Source: Chloroflexota bacterium (GTDB lineage Bacteria > Chloroflexota > Anaerolineae > Anaerolineales > Villigracilaceae). Taken from it: DNA of 64,000 nucleotides. The DNA lies in assembly GCA_016234495.1 (NCBI GenBank), contig JACRBI010000039.1, positions 1 to 64,000 on the forward strand. The letters are read 5' to 3'. Positions 119 through 30,318 of this stretch are shown here, in pieces; positions within the stretch are counted from its first letter, which is position 1, and each line of letters begins with the position of its first letter. Position numbers and translations under genes: made by a program. The notes below the pieces were generated by a model, which saw nothing but the letters and a program-made list of their open reading frames with translations, made no database searches and was not told where the DNA came from.

Positions 119-208
119 TGGCGGAGAGGGCGGGATTCGAACCCGCGAACCTTTGTGGGTTACACGCTTTCCAAGCGTGCGCGCTAAGCCAGACTACGCG
201 ACCTCTCC
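119..208 (-). tRNA. tRNA-Ser (anticodon GGA)
   Basis: Read on the minus strand, the acceptor arm GGAGAGG pairs with CCTCTCC. The anticodon stem CACGC/GCGTG encloses the loop TTGGAAA, giving anticodon GGA. A long variable arm (AACC...GGTT) and a T-arm with GCGGG/CCCGC around TTCGAAT confirm the serine class. Discriminator G and an encoded CCA lie at 119-122. An extended -10 sits upstream and an intrinsic terminator downstream. Confidence 0.95.
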
Positions 209-774: not shown

Positions 775-3700
775 ATGAAATTGACAGCACATGGGTGGGC
801 TTCTTCTTTTTCAGGACTTATTGTCGCGGCAGCGACTATTTTAGGCATCACCGGCGTGGCTTTTGCCAGCGGCGGAGAAATTTTCAACCCGGGGAGTCTG
901 AGCAATCAGGTTGGGGCGCCTTTGGGCGGCGTGACCTCACATTCTGAAATTCAACAATGCAGCGCGTGCCATGCAAGCCCGTGGGAAACCGCCACCATGG
1001 CTGACCGCTGCATTGCGTGCCATACCGACATCACCGCCCAGCTTCAAGACCCGACCAGCCTGCACAGCCTGGTCAAATTTGGGCAGACCGACCTGAACTG
1101 CCGCACTTGCCATACCGAACACCACGGCCCAACCGCAACGCTGACTCGAATTCCGCCCGGCTGGGACCCGCATGACCAGCTTGGTTTTTCGCTTAAAACG
1201 CACCGACTGCGAATGGACGGCACTCCGTTCGAATGTAAAGACTGCCATGAAAAAGGATATAGCGGCCCGTTCGACCAACTCGTCTGCGCCACCTGCCATT
1301 TGAAAGTTGACCAGGTCTTCACGCAGGATCACATCCTGACCTTCTGGACCGACTGTCAGGCCTGCCATGATGGACTGGACACACACGGTTCAACCTTCGA
1401 CCATAACCAGGTCCCGTTCAAATTGGTGGGTATGCACGCTTTGACATTGTGCTCCAAATGTCATGTCAATGCGCGCAACCTGCCCGACCTGCAAGCCACC
1501 GCACAGGACTGTTTTGCCTGCCACGAAAAAGATGACCAGCACCTCGGTCAGTTTGGAACGAAATGCGGAGTTTGTCATACTGCCGAAGGCTGGGGAAAAT
1601 CCGCGCAGTTCGATCATAACCTTGCGAACTTTAAATTAACAGGCAAACACGTAACGGTCGTCTGTGCCGCATGTCATGTCAACAATAAATACAAGGGCAC
1701 TCCTTCAGATTGTTTCTCGTGCCATTCGAAGGATGACAAACACAACGGTCAATTTGGAACCGACTGTGCCTCCTGCCACACATCCGATGGATGGAACAGG
1801 GCGGTGGATCATTCGCAGTTCGCGTTCAAGCTCGAAGGGAAACATTCAATCGTCGCATGCGAAAGCTGCCACAAGGATACCGACTTCAAGAACACTCCGA
1901 CAAACTGTGTTGCCTGCCATGCAAAAGACGACACACACGCCGGTCAGTTTGGCGCGCAATGCGAATCCTGCCATACACCTGAAAACTGGACTTCCGCAAC
2001 CTTTGATCACAACTCCGTTTCGTTCAAATTAACGGCTCACCAGACCAGGTCAGACGGCACTGCATTTGCCTGCAAAGATTGTCACGTAAAAGGCTACGCC
2101 AGTCCCTTTGACCAGACCGCCTGCGCCAACTGCCATTTGAATGAGAATCAGGCCTTTGCTTCGGAACACATCCTCACGTTCTGGACGAACTGCATGGCCT
2201 GTCATGACGGCATTGACTCGCACGGCAAGGCCTTCGATCACAACAACGTCCCGTTCAAACTGGCCGGCAAACATGCGCTGGCGAAATGTTCCAGTTGTCA
2301 TATCAATGACCGCACCATCGCGGACATGCAAGCCACGTCGCAGGAATGTTATACCTGTCATCAAAAGGATGACTTCCATCAGGGACAGTTTGGCACACAA
2401 TGCGGTTCATGCCATGCTCCCGACGCCTGGAAACCTGCAAAGGTGGATCACTCGAAATTCGCATTCCATCTTGACGGAAAACACTCGACAGTTGCCTGCG
2501 CGAGCTGCCACATCAATGGCGTCTTCAAAGGTACGCCACAAGACTGCGCTTCCTGCCACACGAAAGATGATGCGCACGCCGGCTCACTTGGTAATCAATG
2601 CGGAACCTGCCACAGCCCTGCTGGTTGGACTCCTGCCACATTTGATCACAACTCGGTTTCATTCAAACTGACCGCGCACCAGACCAAGTCAGATGGTACT
2701 GCGTTTGCCTGTAAAGATTGCCATGTCAACGGATACGCCGCGCCGTTCGATCAGAACGCCTGCGGAAACTGCCACCTGCAAATTGATCAGGCATTCTCCA
2801 CCGAGCACTTCCTGACCTTCGGCACCGACTGCAAAGCCTGTCACGACGGCGTTGAGTCGCACGGCAAGGCATTCGACCATAACAAAGTTCCGTTCACCCT
2901 GATGGGCAAACATGCCGCAGTGAAATGCTCCGCCTGCCATGTCAACGCGCGCACGCTCACTGACCTCAAGTCCGCGCCGCAGGCGTGCGAATCCTGCCAC
3001 TTGAAAGACGACCATCACAACGGTCAGTTTGGAACCGACTGCGCCGCCTGCCACTCTCCCGAAGGATGGAGCCTCGCCAAGGTCGATCATTCCAAGTTCG
3101 CGTTCCAGCTCGACGGGCAGCATGCTTCTGTTTCCTGCGACAGCTGCCACAAGAATGGCGTTTTCAAAGGCACCCCGCAGGATTGCTTCTCCTGTCATGC
3201 GCAGGATGACAACCACAAAGGCCAGCTCGGCACGCAATGCGCGGCCTGCCATTCGCCCAGCGGATGGAAACCCGCGAAGGTTGATCACTCGCAATTCGCA
3301 TTCCACCTCGATGGCAAACATTCTGCTGTTGCCTGTGAAAGCTGCCACATCAATGGAGTCTTCAAAGGCACGCCCAAGGACTGCGCCTCCTGCCACACCA
3401 AGGATGATGCACATGCGGGTTCGCTTGGCGCGCAATGCGGAACCTGTCACAGCCCCGCAGGTTGGAGTCCGGCGGTCTTTGATCACAACACGGTTTCATT
3501 CAAATTAACCGCGCACAAGACCAAATCAGACGGAAGCGCGTTTGCCTGTAAAGATTGCCATGCAAACGGATATTCCAAACCGTTCGATCAAAATACATGC
3601 GGCAACTGCCACTTGCAGGTCAATCAGGCATTTTCCACCGAGCACTTCCTGACCTTTGGCACGAACTGCATGGCCTGCCATGACGGCATCGACTCGCGCG

Positions 3701-6141
3701 GTTCAAACTTTGACCACGATAAAGTTGCCTTCAACCTGGATGGCAAACATATCCTTGCGAAATGTTCAGCCTGTCATGCCAATGCCCGCACGCTCGCCGA
3801 CCTGAAAGCCACTCCGCAGGAATGTGTTGCCTGCCACTTGAAGGATGACAATCACAACGGCCAGCTTGGCACGCAGTGCGGCGCATGTCACATGCCCACC
3901 GGCTGGAAGCCCGCCACAGTCAACCATTCCCTGTTCGCCTTCCACCTTGATGGAAAACACGCATCTGTTGCCTGTGAAAGCTGCCATGTCAATGGCGTGT
4001 TCAAAGGCACGCCGATGGACTGTGCTTCATGCCACACGAAAGATGATGCTCACAACGGAACGCTCGGCACTTTATGCGGAGCCTGTCACTCGCCCAACGG
4101 CTGGAAGCCCGCCACTGTCGATCACTCGAAGTTCGCGTTCCACCTCGACGGGCAACATGCTTCTGTTTCCTGTGAGAGCTGCCACAAGAATGGCGTTTTC
4201 AAAGGCACCCCGCAGGACTGTGTTTCCTGCCACATCGAGAATGATGTTCATGGTGGCACGCTCGGCACGCAATGCGCAGCCTGTCATTCGCCCAATGGCT
4301 GGAAGCCCGCCACAGTGGATCATTCCAAGTTTGCCTTCCATCTCGATGGCAAACACGCCACTGTCGCTTGCGCAAGCTGTCATCAAAATAATGTCTTCAA
4401 AGGCACACCGCAAGACTGCGCCTCGTGTCACACCAAGGATGACGCGCATAATGGCACGCTTGGCAATCAATGCGGAACCTGTCACAGCCCCGCCGGTTGG
4501 AGTCCCGTCACATTTGACCACAACAAGGTTTCGTTCAAACTGACCGCGCACAAGACAAAATCTGACGGCTCGGCGTTTGCCTGCAAAGACTGCCATGTCA
4601 ATGGGTATTCCAAACCGTTCGACCAGAACACATGCGGAAACTGCCACTTGCAGATCAATCAGGCATTTTCCACCGAACACTTCCTGACCTTCGGCACGAA
4701 CTGCATGGCATGTCATGACGGCGTTGAATCGCTCGGCTCAGGCTTCAACCATAATATGGTGCCGTTCAAGTTGACCGGCAAACACGGACCGCTGGCTTGT
4801 TCCAAGTGCCATGTCAACGCGCACACGCTCAACGATTTGAAAGCCACACCCCAGGCGTGCGTATCCTGCCACTTGAAAGACGACCATCACAACGGTCAGT
4901 TTGGAACCGAATGCGCAGCCTGTCACTCTTCCGAAGGATGGAGTCTCGCCAAAGTCGATCATTCCCTGTTCGCATTCAAACTCGATGGCAAACACGCCGC
5001 AGTTGCCTGTCAGAGTTGCCACATCAACGGACAGTTTAAGGGCACGCCGCAAGACTGCGCTTCCTGCCACATCAAGAATGACGCGCACAATGGGCAGCTT
5101 GGCACGAACTGCGCAACCTGCCACACGCCCAATGGCTGGAAGCCATCCACGTTCAACCATGCCAACTCAGCCTTCCCGCTGACCGGCAAGCACACTTCCG
5201 TCAACTGCACCGCCTGCCACATCAACGGACAGTTCAAAGGCACGCCCATGGACTGCGCTTCATGCCACGCCAAAAATGATCCGCATGGCGGCAAACTCGG
5301 CTCGCAATGTTCAGAGTGCCACACAACCAATGGCTGGATGCCGACAACATTCGATCACAAGAATTCAAACTTCCAGTTGACGGGCAAGCATACGACAGTC
5401 ACCTGCGCTCAATGCCACAAGGATAAATTCTTCGTCGGCACACCCACTGCTTGTTCCTCCTGTCATGGTTCCACCGACCCGCACAGCGGTGCGCTTGGCG
5501 CTCAATGCGAAACCTGTCATACCACGGCCGCATGGAAACCGACCACCTTCAACCATGCCAACTCCGCCTTCAAGTTGACCGGCAAGCACACCACCGTTTT
5601 GTGCGCCGCGTGTCACAAGGATATGAAATTCAAAGGCACGCCCACAACCTGTTTCGCCTGTCACGCGGCCAATGACCGTCACGGCGGCAAGTATGGAACG
5701 AACTGCGAAACCTGCCACACCACGACAGCCTGGAAGCCGGCAACATTCAATCACAACCTTTCAGCCTTCCCGCTCACCGGCGCGCATATCAATACCGCCT
5801 GCAGCGCTTGTCATATCAATGGTGTGTTCATCGGCACGCCCAAGGACTGTAATTCCTGCCACAAAGGCAAAGACCCGCACGCGGGCAAGGCTGGCACAAA
5901 TTGTGCAACCTGTCACACCACCACAGCCTGGAAGCCGGCTACCTTCAAGCACACCTTCCCGCTCACTCACGGCAAGAATCCGATCGCCACGTGCGTAACC
6001 TGCCATCCGAGTACGACCTCCGCTTATACATGTTTTAGCTGCCACGAGCATACAGCCACCAACATGGCGGAAAAACACAAGGAAGTCAAAAATTACTCAA
6101 CCACCACCTGCGCGAACTGTCATGCAGATGGAAAAGATTGA
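775..6141 (+). CDS. Giant secreted multiheme cytochrome c, about 75 hemes
   Basis: This 1788-aa protein starts at the ATG at 775, which has an ACGGAGA ribosome site 6-7 bases upstream; an ATG at 757 in the same frame lacks one. A signal peptide (hydrophobic run ending at ALA-like VAFAS) is followed by almost nothing but CxxCH heme sites. I count 75, falling into 25 triplets: one N-terminal unit, five type-B units (CKDCH, CxNCH, CxACHDG), eighteen type-A units (CH after GKH, FKGTPxDCxSCH, LGxQCxxCH) and one C-terminal unit. Conserved FDH and GKH histidines between sites are probable distal heme ligands. There is no membrane anchor, LPxTG or other catalytic domain. The likely role is extracellular electron conduction or storage; the partner proteins are not known from this window. 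Confidence 0.93.
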   Translation: MKLTAHGWASSFSGLIVAAATILGITGVAFASGGEIFNPGSLSNQVGAPLGGVTSHSEIQQCSACHASPWETATMADRCIACHTDITAQLQDPTSLHSLVKFGQTDLNCRTCHTEHHGPTATLTRIPPGWDPHDQLGFSLKTHRLRMDGTPFECKDCHEKGYSGPFDQLVCATCHLKVDQVFTQDHILTFWTDCQACHDGLDTHGSTFDHNQVPFKLVGMHALTLCSKCHVNARNLPDLQATAQDCFACHEKDDQHLGQFGTKCGVCHTAEGWGKSAQFDHNLANFKLTGKHVTVVCAACHVNNKYKGTPSDCFSCHSKDDKHNGQFGTDCASCHTSDGWNRAVDHSQFAFKLEGKHSIVACESCHKDTDFKNTPTNCVACHAKDDTHAGQFGAQCESCHTPENWTSATFDHNSVSFKLTAHQTRSDGTAFACKDCHVKGYASPFDQTACANCHLNENQAFASEHILTFWTNCMACHDGIDSHGKAFDHNNVPFKLAGKHALAKCSSCHINDRTIADMQATSQECYTCHQKDDFHQGQFGTQCGSCHAPDAWKPAKVDHSKFAFHLDGKHSTVACASCHINGVFKGTPQDCASCHTKDDAHAGSLGNQCGTCHSPAGWTPATFDHNSVSFKLTAHQTKSDGTAFACKDCHVNGYAAPFDQNACGNCHLQIDQAFSTEHFLTFGTDCKACHDGVESHGKAFDHNKVPFTLMGKHAAVKCSACHVNARTLTDLKSAPQACESCHLKDDHHNGQFGTDCAACHSPEGWSLAKVDHSKFAFQLDGQHASVSCDSCHKNGVFKGTPQDCFSCHAQDDNHKGQLGTQCAACHSPSGWKPAKVDHSQFAFHLDGKHSAVACESCHINGVFKGTPKDCASCHTKDDAHAGSLGAQCGTCHSPAGWSPAVFDHNTVSFKLTAHKTKSDGSAFACKDCHANGYSKPFDQNTCGNCHLQVNQAFSTEHFLTFGTNCMACHDGIDSRGSNFDHDKVAFNLDGKHILAKCSACHANARTLADLKATPQECVACHLKDDNHNGQLGTQCGACHMPTGWKPATVNHSLFAFHLDGKHASVACESCHVNGVFKGTPMDCASCHTKDDAHNGTLGTLCGACHSPNGWKPATVDHSKFAFHLDGQHASVSCESCHKNGVFKGTPQDCVSCHIENDVHGGTLGTQCAACHSPNGWKPATVDHSKFAFHLDGKHATVACASCHQNNVFKGTPQDCASCHTKDDAHNGTLGNQCGTCHSPAGWSPVTFDHNKVSFKLTAHKTKSDGSAFACKDCHVNGYSKPFDQNTCGNCHLQINQAFSTEHFLTFGTNCMACHDGVESLGSGFNHNMVPFKLTGKHGPLACSKCHVNAHTLNDLKATPQACVSCHLKDDHHNGQFGTECAACHSSEGWSLAKVDHSLFAFKLDGKHAAVACQSCHINGQFKGTPQDCASCHIKNDAHNGQLGTNCATCHTPNGWKPSTFNHANSAFPLTGKHTSVNCTACHINGQFKGTPMDCASCHAKNDPHGGKLGSQCSECHTTNGWMPTTFDHKNSNFQLTGKHTTVTCAQCHKDKFFVGTPTACSSCHGSTDPHSGALGAQCETCHTTAAWKPTTFNHANSAFKLTGKHTTVLCAACHKDMKFKGTPTTCFACHAANDRHGGKYGTNCETCHTTTAWKPATFNHNLSAFPLTGAHINTACSACHINGVFIGTPKDCNSCHKGKDPHAGKAGTNCATCHTTTAWKPATFKHTFPLTHGKNPIATCVTCHPSTTSAYTCFSCHEHTATNMAEKHKEVKNYSTTTCANCHADGKD

Positions 6142-6990: not shown

Positions 6991-8100
6991 CTATGGCTTG
7001 CCTCCATTCCCATTCTCATTTCCATTCGAATCTGTCGGGCCGGTTCCGTCGCAAGTGCAGTCGCCAGAAGGGCAATTGGGACAGGTGCCGTCACCGGGGC
7101 CAGTTCCAGTTCCATTGCCGGGGTCGGCGGTTGGGGCGGCTGTTGGCGCTGGGTCAGGCGTTCCATTTTGATTCTGGTTTTGATTTTGATTCTGGTTTTG
7201 GTTTTGATTCTGGTTTTGGTTTTGATTTTGATTCAAGTCGCCTGATTGATTCTGATTCTGGTTTTGGTTCTGATTCAGATTACCGTTCTGACTCTGGGAT
7301 TGATTCTGATTCTGCTCTTGTAGTTCATCCTGCAACTGCTGCTGGATCTGATCCTGCTCGCGGATGCGGAGCTGCTCACGCAGCCATTGCGGGTCTTCCG
7401 CTCCGTCTTGGCACAGTTGAAGTTGTTCCTGAAGCATCGCTTGAGTCTGTTCGCGGACTTTCAGCAAAGCCGGGTCGTCATTCTGAGTCTGCTGCAATTG
7501 AGCCATGGTTTGATTATGGATTTGCAGTTGGGTCTGCACTTGCTGCAATGCCGCTTGAGATTGTTCCTCCGGCATGTTCACAGCCAGATGCAGTGCCTGC
7601 TGCAATTGTTCTTGCAGGCGCGCCATGACGGCTTGCGGCGGAATTTCGCCTGCCTGAAGCATGGTTTGAATCTCTGCCATGCGGCGCGCGGCAAATGTCA
7701 ATGCAAGTTGAAGCTGGGACTCTTGATCGTTTGAGATGGAGATGCGGACGTCTTCGCTCCAGACTTTCATCTGATAGAGCGCGTCATCGGGCATGCTTGC
7801 TTGAGCGGCTGCCACAGTGCCTCCGCCAAATGCAAGGCTTAAGACAACGAACAGGGTTAGTACTGTACTTAACATGGATACTCCTTTTTGTTTTTCAGGG
7901 ATTCGGAAAGTTGTGTTTGCTGCGATCCATTCTTTCAGACGTTGGATCGGGCTGGGAGGTACGCTCTTTGCGGCAGTCCTTGCTTCAGCGAGGAAAATTG
8001 CCCGTTGAACAGAGGCAGTTTGCGGGTCGCGCGGAGGCGTTTTGCGCAGCTGCTCGATCTGCTCGATCAGTTCAGGGTCGATTTGGTCATTGTGATCCAT
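6991..8100 (-). CDS. DUF5667-type membrane protein with Asn-Gln repeat tail, putative anti-sigma partner
   Basis: This 369-aa protein has a cytosolic N-terminus (1-70), one membrane helix (about 75-100) and an outer domain starting PDDALYQMKVWSEDVRI, the hallmark of DUF5667. A Gln-rich helical region follows (about 150-260), then a nearly pure Asn-Gln dipeptide tract (263-312) and a Pro/Gly/Asn tail with a CPNC...CTC cluster. It starts 3 bases after the ECF sigma stop, so it is cotranscribed and probably translationally coupled. The arrangement suggests an anti-sigma or surface sensor. The NQ tract is encoded by near-identical 6-base units and is likely length-variable. Confidence 0.8.
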   Translation of the reverse strand: MDHNDQIDPELIEQIEQLRKTPPRDPQTASVQRAIFLAEARTAAKSVPPSPIQRLKEWIAANTTFRIPEKQKGVSMLSTVLTLFVVLSLAFGGGTVAAAQASMPDDALYQMKVWSEDVRISISNDQESQLQLALTFAARRMAEIQTMLQAGEIPPQAVMARLQEQLQQALHLAVNMPEEQSQAALQQVQTQLQIHNQTMAQLQQTQNDDPALLKVREQTQAMLQEQLQLCQDGAEDPQWLREQLRIREQDQIQQQLQDELQEQNQNQSQSQNGNLNQNQNQNQNQSGDLNQNQNQNQNQNQNQNQNQNQNQNGTPDPAPTAAPTADPGNGTGTGPGDGTCPNCPSGDCTCDGTGPTDSNGNENGNGGKP

Positions 8101-8103
8101 GGG

Positions 8104-8649
8104 CTAAACCTTTTCCGCTTCCAATAAAAATCTTTGCAGTGAACTTAACGCGCGGTGTTGAAGCGACTTGACCGCGCCGATCGGTTTCCGGATGCTTTCC
8201 GCAATTTCGGCAATATCCCAACCTTCCACAAAGCGCAGGGTGATGACATGACGCTGGTCTGGTGTAAGTTTTTCCAGCGCCGTGCGAATATTCTGGCGGG
8301 TGATGTTTTGCTCGGTTTGCTGACAGGGATCATCGTCTGGGTCGGGCAGTTCACTGTATAAATCCAGTTCCAGCGTGGGTTTGCGGCGGTAGTGATCTGT
8401 GACCCAGTTATGAACGCTGCGATAAAGATATCCTTTCAGGTTTTCTTTTGGTCCGCCGCCGTTGCGGAACGTTTTCAACAGGCGGCTGAATGTTTCAGCG
8501 ACGCAATCTTCAGCGAGCGCGGTATCTCCCAGCAGGCGCACGGCATAATAGTACAAGCCATTGTTGTACCGATCATAGATCGCTGTAATGGATGCCAGGT
8601 CAAAGCGGCGGGCTTGTGCGAGGAGTTCATCATCTGATGGTAGATCCAT
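8104..8649 (-). CDS. ECF-family RNA polymerase sigma factor
   Basis: This 181-aa protein has the two sigma domains of extracytoplasmic-function factors: region 2 near residues 20-90 (YDRYNNGLYYYAVRLLGD onward) and region 4 near 120-175 (LTPDQRHVITLRF, then the HTH IAEIAESIRKPIGAVKSL). The length is normal for the family. It is the first gene of a two-gene operon with the DUF5667 membrane protein, which probably controls it. The target genes are unknown. Confidence 0.92.
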   Translation of the reverse strand: MDLPSDDELLAQARRFDLASITAIYDRYNNGLYYYAVRLLGDTALAEDCVAETFSRLLKTFRNGGGPKENLKGYLYRSVHNWVTDHYRRKPTLELDLYSELPDPDDDPCQQTEQNITRQNIRTALEKLTPDQRHVITLRFVEGWDIAEIAESIRKPIGAVKSLQHRALSSLQRFLLEAEKV

Positions 8650-27981: not shown

Positions 27982-30318
27982 CTATTTTTCCTTCATCGTC
28001 ATCAAAAACGCGATGAGATCGTTAATTTCTTCTTCTGTCAAAATCTTTCCAAAATTTTGAATCATTTGTCCCTCGGGGAAGCCCGGCACGATAAAGGCAT
28101 TCGGCTCCACGATGGATTGATGCAGGTATTCTTCGGCTGTCAGGCCGGGTACGCGGCTGCCTGCGCGATCGGCAATGCCGTAAAACGACGGACCGATGAT
28201 CACTTCATCTTTTTCGAGCGAGTGGCAAATGCGGCAGCCAGCGTTAACTCCTGAAGCCGTCTCGTAGTAAAGCTGCTCGCCCGCCACAGGATCGGGGATG
28301 TGCATGTCCCTGAAATTTATCGTCAGCGATTGCCGCGCGGCGAGGGGAATTGTTTTGTCGAACAACACCTGCGCAAAGCCTGCATCCGGTCTGTCGTACA
28401 TTTTTATTGTAATTCGATGATTGCCGGCAGGCAAATGAACTTGTTTGAAGATCCGCGCGCCCTGGTTGATGCCGTCATCCTGATGCTCGTAGGTTTCATC
28501 GAAGACAGGCTTCCCATCCACTTCCAGCGTGAGGCGTGTCGGATGGTCAAGATCAGGCTCGAGCGTGGGCGGAAGCGCAACGTCGTGAATGGCGTATCCG
28601 CTGTGATGAGTCATCTGAATTGCCAGCACGGCTGAATCCGCGCTGAAAAATTTTGTCGGCCAATCGCTCAACCAGATTTGGAATGCGGTGATAACTGCCA
28701 GCACGCCGATCAGCGGGATGATAAAACGCAGATGCGATTTATTCGGCGCGAATGTAAAAGTATTCGGTTCAGACTTAATTTTTGAGTTGATTGCCCTTCC
28801 AAAATCAGTGGGCGCAGCCCAGGCAGTGTGAACCAGTGGAATAAAGTTCTGCTTAAGTTTGGGCAGGCGTTCACCCATGATGCGCTCGTTTAACCAGACA
28901 TTGCCTTCGCGGTTGGCGCAGTCTTCTGGCGGACAGCCAATGAATTGAACGTCACTCGCGCCCGCTTCAAGAGCCTGCGCCGCAAGGTTGGGATTCGCCA
29001 TCGCAATGCAGGTGAGCGGAACGATGTAAGTGCCAGGGTCGTCGAAGTGTTTGCCTGCGCCGTGCAGGGCGTGACGTTCGCAGGTGAAAACAACTTTAAT
29101 GTTTTTCTGTTCGGCAACTTCACTGAGGGTTGTTTTCCAAAGCGGGTTGAGCGGGGTGTCGCCAAAGGTCAGGGCGTTATCGGGGCAGCTTCCGATGCAT
29201 ACGCCGCAGGAGACGCAGAGATTGGGGTCGATGTCAGCTTGGAATTTGGGGCGCGCTCCATCGGTGCGCGGAATCATTTTGATCGCCAGATATGGGCAGT
29301 CGCGTTCGCAAAGGGTGCAGCCGTCACAATTGGCCAGGTCTACTTTGACAGGTTCGAGTTTCTTTGCGCGCGGCATGATCCACGGCAGGGCGGTAATCAG
29401 GCCGAGGATGAAAAGCAGGACGCTCCAAAAGAGCGCCTGTGGCCCGCGCAGGAAGGCGGGCAGGTAGAATAAATAAAATAAGTCAATCGGAGCCTGCTCC
29501 GCGAGCTGCGTGGCGTTGAGCAAGGGCAACATGCCAAGCGGGAACAGCGCTGATGAAAGCAGGAGCACGAGGGTTGAAATAACCATCCAATATTTTGGGG
29601 GCAGCCATTTTGCGCGGCTCATGCGTTTGAGATGCAGCCACAGAAAATAGGCGGTCAGCGCGGAAAGCCCAACATGCAGAAGGATGACGATCATCATGAA
29701 GACCCAGCCGTTGCCTGCGGCCTCCCCGACGATAAAGTTTACGATAAAGTTTTGTCCGCTTTTGAAATTGCCAAGGATGTTGAAAAGGCTTTGATTCAAG
29801 AGCTGCGTGCGGTTATCCCAGATCAGCCAGTAGCCGGTGATGCCAATCGCCCAGACCACTACTGCCATGCCGACACCTGTGATCCATGCCAGCCAGCGCG
29901 GTCCGCGGAAGCGGTCCTGGAAGAAGGTGCGCCAGCCGTGCAGGAGCGCGAAAATGACCGCCGCGTCTGAAGCGTAACGGTGCATGGCGCGGATGATGCG
30001 CCCGATGAAATTGGCTTCGATCTTGGATACTGCTTCGTAGGAGATTGTGAACCCGAACGGGTAGAACAGGGTCAGGTAGATGCCTGTCAGCAGGATGACC
30101 ACCAGCAGGAAGATGGTGATCGTGCCTGTGTGGTAGAGCGGATTGAAACGCGGGTCGTTGATCAGCCAGTTGAGCGGGGATTCAAGGCGCAGGGAAATGC
30201 TCTCGAAAAAATTGAGCAGTTGTCGGCTGGGAGAATTGAGCCGCGCATCCCAGTCCACGCTGGGGTTGCGCTCCGAGAGCGAATCGGTCAGTTGTTTTTT
30301 TGTCGGGGATGTGGTCAT
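27982..30318 (-). CDS. Fused cytochrome b / 2x[4Fe-4S] ferredoxin / FlpD-like / cytochrome c protein
   Basis: This 778-aa protein joins four redox modules. Residues 60-315 are a cytochrome b membrane domain with heme ligand pairs H113/H127 and H215/H229, both 14 residues apart as in bc1 complexes. Residues 331-378 are a two-cluster ferredoxin (C331-334-337-341 and C368-371-374-378). Residues 408-490 resemble FlpD/MvhD, with C413, C437, C462 and C467 and GCPPEDCANREGN. After a helix (531-549) and a beta domain comes a cytochrome c domain with C695RICH and a likely ligand M752. No Rieske protein is seen nearby. It starts 139 bases after ba3 oxidase subunit I on the same strand. It probably passes electrons from quinol or a cytosolic donor to an external heme. 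The exact reaction is unknown. Confidence 0.85.
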   Translation of the reverse strand: MTTSPTKKQLTDSLSERNPSVDWDARLNSPSRQLLNFFESISLRLESPLNWLINDPRFNPLYHTGTITIFLLVVILLTGIYLTLFYPFGFTISYEAVSKIEANFIGRIIRAMHRYASDAAVIFALLHGWRTFFQDRFRGPRWLAWITGVGMAVVVWAIGITGYWLIWDNRTQLLNQSLFNILGNFKSGQNFIVNFIVGEAAGNGWVFMMIVILLHVGLSALTAYFLWLHLKRMSRAKWLPPKYWMVISTLVLLLSSALFPLGMLPLLNATQLAEQAPIDLFYLFYLPAFLRGPQALFWSVLLFILGLITALPWIMPRAKKLEPVKVDLANCDGCTLCERDCPYLAIKMIPRTDGARPKFQADIDPNLCVSCGVCIGSCPDNALTFGDTPLNPLWKTTLSEVAEQKNIKVVFTCERHALHGAGKHFDDPGTYIVPLTCIAMANPNLAAQALEAGASDVQFIGCPPEDCANREGNVWLNERIMGERLPKLKQNFIPLVHTAWAAPTDFGRAINSKIKSEPNTFTFAPNKSHLRFIIPLIGVLAVITAFQIWLSDWPTKFFSADSAVLAIQMTHHSGYAIHDVALPPTLEPDLDHPTRLTLEVDGKPVFDETYEHQDDGINQGARIFKQVHLPAGNHRITIKMYDRPDAGFAQVLFDKTIPLAARQSLTINFRDMHIPDPVAGEQLYYETASGVNAGCRICHSLEKDEVIIGPSFYGIADRAGSRVPGLTAEEYLHQSIVEPNAFIVPGFPEGQMIQNFGKILTEEEINDLIAFLMTMKEK

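Follow-up and report, generated by a model that had tools for sequence, protein, structure and literature searches.

Organization of the locus

The giant cytochrome gene lies near the beginning of the window, the 64,000-nucleotide stretch of Chloroflexota bacterium DNA analyzed here, which forms the start of contig C25. The gene is a single unbroken frame of 1788 aa (positions 775 to 6141, + strand), with a good ribosome-binding site (ACGGAGACTTATTATG) just before its start. Counting motifs in this frame gave 75 CxxCH sites, the number that the original prediction had reached by eye, at a density of 23.9 residues per heme. The 150 cysteines amount to exactly two per motif, and CxxC without the histidine does not occur. 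By comparison, shuffled sequences of the same composition contained a mean of 1.15 and a maximum of 7 CxxCH motifs (2000 shuffles). The features of the locus are listed below; the N and C units and the cassettes were delimited by motif spacing.

119..208 (-): tRNA-Ser(GGA), a recurrent neighbor of the giant gene in L022, L024, L028 and L060
775..6141 (+): whole 75-heme cytochrome gene (frame, motif count, Pfam, pN/pS)
775..867 (+): signal-peptide-like N-terminus, residues 1-31, MKLTAHGWASSFSGLIVAAATILGITGVAFA followed by S (read from the translation)
958..1233 (+): N unit, hemes 1-3, spacings 17, 30 and 45
1234..2070 (+): cassette 1, B-a-A-A, 12 hemes
2071..2709 (+): cassette 2, B-a-A, 9 hemes
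2710..3546 (+): cassette 3, B-a-A-A, 12 hemes
3547..4581 (+): cassette 4, B-a-A-A-A, 15 hemes, modeled with its flanks
4582..5991 (+): cassette 5, the last, B-a-A-A-A-A-A, 21 hemes
5992..6138 (+): C unit, final three hemes, spacings 13 and 26, with a free C-terminus

Judged by eye from the translation, residues 1 to 31 resemble a Sec signal peptide ending in VAFA before S, in agreement with the secreted protein that had been predicted. This segment is also the sole strongly hydrophobic 19-residue window of the protein. No lipobox, LPXTG or other sorting motif, or second hydrophobic segment was seen in the sequence, and neither an S-layer domain nor an anchor was found by Pfam and sequence inspection. 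Lacking such elements, the protein, if exported, could diffuse away. The genome itself contains cytochrome c assembly genes and gave zero matches to Omp85. For an Anaerolineales-type genome this fits a monoderm envelope, as had been proposed from the sequence.

Triheme units and predicted heme ligands

The motif spacings split the 75 sites into 25 triheme units in the order N-B-aAA-B-aA-B-aAA-B-aAAA-B-aAAAAA-C. The arrangement predicted initially, 25 triplets ordered N-B-A3-B-A2-B-A3-B-A4-B-A6-C, is therefore correct by this parse and needs a single refinement: the first A after every B is always a variant, here called a, with spacing 20,18 instead of 16,18. The larger repeat of the protein is the cassette B-a-A^n, present in five copies.

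Units 2 to 24 each carry three additional histidines at fixed places. Aligning 53 cassettes taken from the window and its relatives showed that the B and a units retain their distal histidines completely or nearly so; in the first A unit, conservation of these residues is 92 to 100%. With three conserved extra histidines per unit, every heme can be bis-His ligated; no vacant heme is expected, and no methionine ligand is needed (the protein has 16 methionines in 1788 aa and 25 units). As far as ligands can be predicted from sequence, the availability of two histidines for each heme argues for a role in electron transfer rather than catalysis.

Selection on the frame and repeat content

Since the sequence is repetitive and the genome is a draft, the gene could in principle reflect an assembly repeat expansion or a non-coding frame. 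The data make this highly unlikely. For the 432 N-terminal and 519 C-terminal residues, pN/pS equals 0.13 to 0.21 relative to three relatives, with synonymous sites near saturation, which points to strong purifying selection. The longest exact repeat inside the gene is only 48 bp, and units of equal length are at most 83% identical in DNA (at least 17% different). Moreover, the same architecture, with one common grammar, was assembled independently in several other MAGs. The assembly artefact that the original prediction had named as a way to fail is thus not what is found here, although short reads, if used, could have shifted the exact copy number by a unit.

Domain matches and predicted structure

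The protein matches PF14522 (Cytochrome_C7; class III cytochrome type in Pfam) with 280.9 bits against a cut-off of 24.8 (each of the 53 aligned cassettes matches it too), and shows a partial match to the Pfam model of MtrC/MtrF domain II/IV. Only matches of the c3, c7 and MtrC type were obtained with Pfam, in line with the expectation of a protein nearly free of other domains. The NCBIfam model TIGR03507 (OmcA/MtrC outer-membrane decaheme) scored 19.6 bits, below its cut-off of 209.3. Membership in TIGR04257 (nanowire_3heme) was rejected, because the best score was 21.9 bits on a fragment versus a cut-off of 40 bits; nothing in the same genome exceeded this cut-off. The ActA pentaheme subunit was likewise discarded as an ancestor of the units, with similarity at chance level only.

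Among solved structures, the best profile matches were to multiheme proteins of the c3/c7 type: HmcA (1z1n, E 8e-13), a nine-heme cytochrome (1duw, E 1e-7) and GSU1996 (3ov0, E 1.8e-7). An AlphaFold model of cassette 4 with its flanks, built without heme, reached a pLDDT of 78 and a pTM of 0.44, whereas a second model covering the C-terminal third (574 aa) was poor (pLDDT 61). A Foldseek search with the cassette 4 model returned nothing significant in the PDB or among viral models, and VIA gave NrfB alone, at Z 3.0; hydroxylamine oxidoreductase and NrfB were the sole PDB rows.

The signal-peptide-like start, the many hemes and the c-type repeats would also suit a protein that polymerizes into cytochrome filaments, as OmcS, OmcE and OmcZ do, with the repeats stacking between molecules. 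These filaments are built from small subunits with few hemes each. The 75-heme protein and its relatives already link their repeats covalently, in varying number, which would make a regular polymer less likely, and no chain named OmcS, OmcE or OmcZ appears among the structure-profile matches listed, which is weak evidence in the same direction. Overall, we regard a filament subunit as improbable.

Family and heme-number series

The family to which the protein belongs ranges from about 15 to 105 hemes. Two paralogs in the same genome have 30 and 20 hemes, and other family members in the genus mostly have 14 to 21. Relatives in other Anaerolineales genomes carry 105 (L022), 81 (L028), 57 (L060) and 47 hemes (L092), and further relatives on broken contigs contain at least 78, at least 56 and at least 48. 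The complete close relatives with 57, 75, 81 and 105 hemes obey a single grammar, N-(B-a-A^n)^k-C, while the 47-heme protein is a tail variant in which an acidic tail replaces the last heme. In a tree built on the N-terminal nine-heme region, the proteins with 47 to 105 hemes form one clade with full support. Among 301 genomes sampled from the order, only seven have a match at an E value of 1e-130 or better, and all seven fall in one taxonomic family.

Across the wider family, two C-terminal types recur in many members (for example, L006 and L007): a C-terminus without a tail behind the final CxxCH, or an acidic Gly/Asp tail. The acidic type (GGGDDDD) loses the last heme, leading to mostly 3n+2 hemes.

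Both end regions of the 75-heme protein align unit by unit with those of its relatives, and the middle cassettes do not, indicating that growth and loss occur in the middle. The N unit is 92% identical to that of the 105-heme relative (L022) and 89% identical to that of the 81-heme relative (L028), and the units of cassette 1 align position by position with cassette 1 of both. In cassette 5, B, a and A3-A6 match equal positions in the last cassette of L022 and L023. The N unit and the first and last cassettes thus correspond one-to-one to those of the 105-heme relative, and the number of middle cassettes changes. The N-terminal regions of the 75- and 105-heme proteins are 85 to 88% identical, with 88% for the region used in the tree, yet the two proteins are 30 hemes apart.

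Outside the Chloroflexota, a 40-heme plasmid protein of Emticicia oligotrophica is related (35% identity) but differs in spacing. On this plasmid (pEMTOL02, L079) of a cultured member of the Bacteroidota, adjacent 23- and 40-heme relatives stand near a CcsA gene. A viral or phage origin was rejected, as the phage and viral collections contained zero relatives of the 75-heme protein.

Putative function

The reading that we favor, and to which we give about an even chance of being right, is that of an exported c7-like chain that relays electrons lengthwise, with defined ends, a middle of evolving length, and charge storage as a side effect. We infer that heme is attached at the 75 sites and that the tandem 25-unit protein is exported, which would place it within the cell wall or outside it, in an envelope that has no outer membrane. 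Electrons would enter at one conserved end, hop from heme to heme along linearly packed repeats, and exit at the other conserved end toward an extracellular acceptor or partner; the direction of this flow and the partners at either end are presumed. With 75 low-spin hemes, one molecule may hold up to 75 electrons, so that some charge could be stored as well. Fixed ends combined with a changing number of middle cassettes are what would be expected for a conduit that docks at both ends and owes its length to the middle. The original prediction of a dedicated conductor or capacitor holds insofar as the protein is multiheme, has no other domain and is expected to have no open heme site; a place on the cell surface, conduction along its length and a wire-like form are the putative parts of that prediction.

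Alternatively, the protein may mainly store electrons, up to 75 per molecule, during gaps in acceptor supply, with length representing capacity rather than reach. This capacitor role has been discussed for GSU1996 (PMC10138318), and similar speculation exists for 112-heme proteins (PMC11495043). Heme number varies widely and freely in close relatives, and a change from 75 to 105 hemes, between proteins whose N-terminal regions are 85 to 88% identical, would be as acceptable in a reservoir as in a wire. Furthermore, storage would serve a facultative organism meeting changing oxygen: the genome encodes three heme-copper oxidase subunit I genes (one of them inside the window) and many multiheme cytochromes, which makes redox swings plausible. 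The position-by-position conservation of both end regions, however, suggests more than bulk storage, and we consider a primarily capacitive role possible but somewhat less probable than the lengthwise relay.

Returning to the relay, a more specific and tentative version can be formulated in which the protein is a wire of tunable length in bacteria that lack an outer membrane. Entry and exit modules would be fixed, and the gain or loss of whole cassettes (k = 2 to 7) would set its reach, from 47 to 105 hemes. Electron export in bacteria without an outer membrane is poorly known, and the relatives with about 15 to 105 hemes, made from the same units in one genus, represent a natural length series. 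Such a series could separate wire from capacitor by comparing rate and stored charge with the number of units.

Comparison with known systems

The nearest structural precedent for the 75-heme protein is GSU1996, in which the hemes of four triheme c7 domains line up as a wire, with edge-to-edge distances of 3 to 5 A, and each domain has one His-Met heme (PMC10138318). Like GSU1996 and GSU2210, the Geobacter periplasmic "nanowires of hemes" (3ov0), the protein is a single chain of tandem triheme c7-type units, 25 in this case. In contrast, the Geobacter proteins have 12 or 27 hemes and reside in another envelope, and the His-Met heme in each GSU1996 domain gives way here to three distal histidines per unit, a difference read from the amino acid sequence.

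Large MHCs are already described for Anaerolineales genomes without porin-cytochrome complexes (PMC7399161, Fig. 5). Close relatives among them differ in heme number by pairs or multiples, and the largest class has 30 to 53 hemes (PMC7399161). The protein studied here comes from the same order and is likewise large and variable in heme number; compared by description, it differs in its 75 hemes (81 and 105 in relatives), and its two-level cassette grammar and conserved distal histidines are set out explicitly here.

Very high heme numbers are also known from archaea, including a 113-heme S-layer cytochrome of "Ca. Methanoperedens" (PMC7082337) and an 86-heme protein of ANME-2c (PMC9012536), for which extracellular electron transfer has been proposed. 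Those proteins have S-layer domains, whereas Pfam assigns no other domain to the 75-heme protein. Bacterial, secreted proteins with more than 100 CxxCH motifs occur in a Paludibaculum MAG (Acidobacteriota; 112 hemes) and in Saprospiraceae (Bacteroidota; over 100 hemes), with a speculated wire- or capacitor-like role (PMC11495043); they belong to other phyla and were compared by description. Given these 112- and 113-heme proteins, and the 105 hemes of L022, the initial description of the heme number as very high compared with any known cytochrome was too strong: 75 hemes is near, not above, the published record. Chloroflexota heme numbers do come close to that record. Together with the variable Anaerolineales cytochromes already published, this limits the novelty of the protein. 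In the open-access literature searched, neither the two-level cassette grammar and its conserved ends nor the Chloroflexota clade of 47- to 105-heme proteins was found described.

Genomic neighborhood

The end of contig C24 overlaps the start of C25 exactly over 89 bp, within an 85-bp tandem repeat, and genes of alternative complex III (ACIII) stand just before this overlapping end. In L024 and L028, ACIII, tRNA-Ser(GGA) on the other strand and the giant cytochrome gene are contiguous. This order, which would extend to the genome under study if C24 and C25 join, could suggest that the 75-heme protein is a dedicated acceptor of ACIII in a quinol-oxidizing chain. Several observations speak against such a link. 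ACIII adjoins tRNA-Ser without a giant gene there in two control genomes (G031, L107; G022, L108). In G021, a 57-heme gene lies by tRNA-Ser (L060) with ACIII elsewhere (L110), and in G121 the 47-heme gene is at another place, with tRNA-Ser not near. In addition, the opposite-strand tRNA separates ACIII from the giant gene. As the ACIII-tRNA-Ser order also occurs in genomes without a giant gene beside it, it is inherited, older synteny and not evidence for a complex. Coupling to ACIII on the basis of neighborhood, upstream in three genomes, was consequently rejected, and we consider a dedicated ACIII acceptor very doubtful. Physical electron flow from ACIII to the 75-heme protein is possible.

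The genes downstream of the giant gene are a dienelactone-hydrolase-like one, seen in relatives and assigned by its sequence, and one of the carboxymuconolactone-decarboxylase family; neither has an evident electron-transfer role. No co-transcribed partner was found for the giant cytochrome gene.

An 85- to 88-bp tandem array flanks the tRNA gene at its 3' side (window, 1-150; L021, 12077-12259; L028, 6841-7140). Each copy comprises the 3' end of tRNA-Ser(GGA) and a hairpin. The array accounts for the assembly break in the genome of the window and is present in another MAG.

Elsewhere in the window, a gene at 6991-8100 (-) encodes a protein whose long N/Q-rich tail (NQNQNQ...) is of low complexity; it adjoins an RNA polymerase sigma-factor-like gene at 8104-8649. 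At 27982-30318 (-), a 778-aa fusion combines cytochrome b, 4Fe-4S, FlpD-like and cytochrome c domains; it adjoins cytochrome oxidase genes (COX1 and COX2), two SCO proteins and an Rrf2 regulator. On a further contig (L017, 3-4424; G000:C32), a frame of about 2181 aa has 15 CxxCH motifs fused to a subtilisin-type-protease-like N-terminal part with Ig-like repeats, and is clustered with several other multiheme cytochromes.
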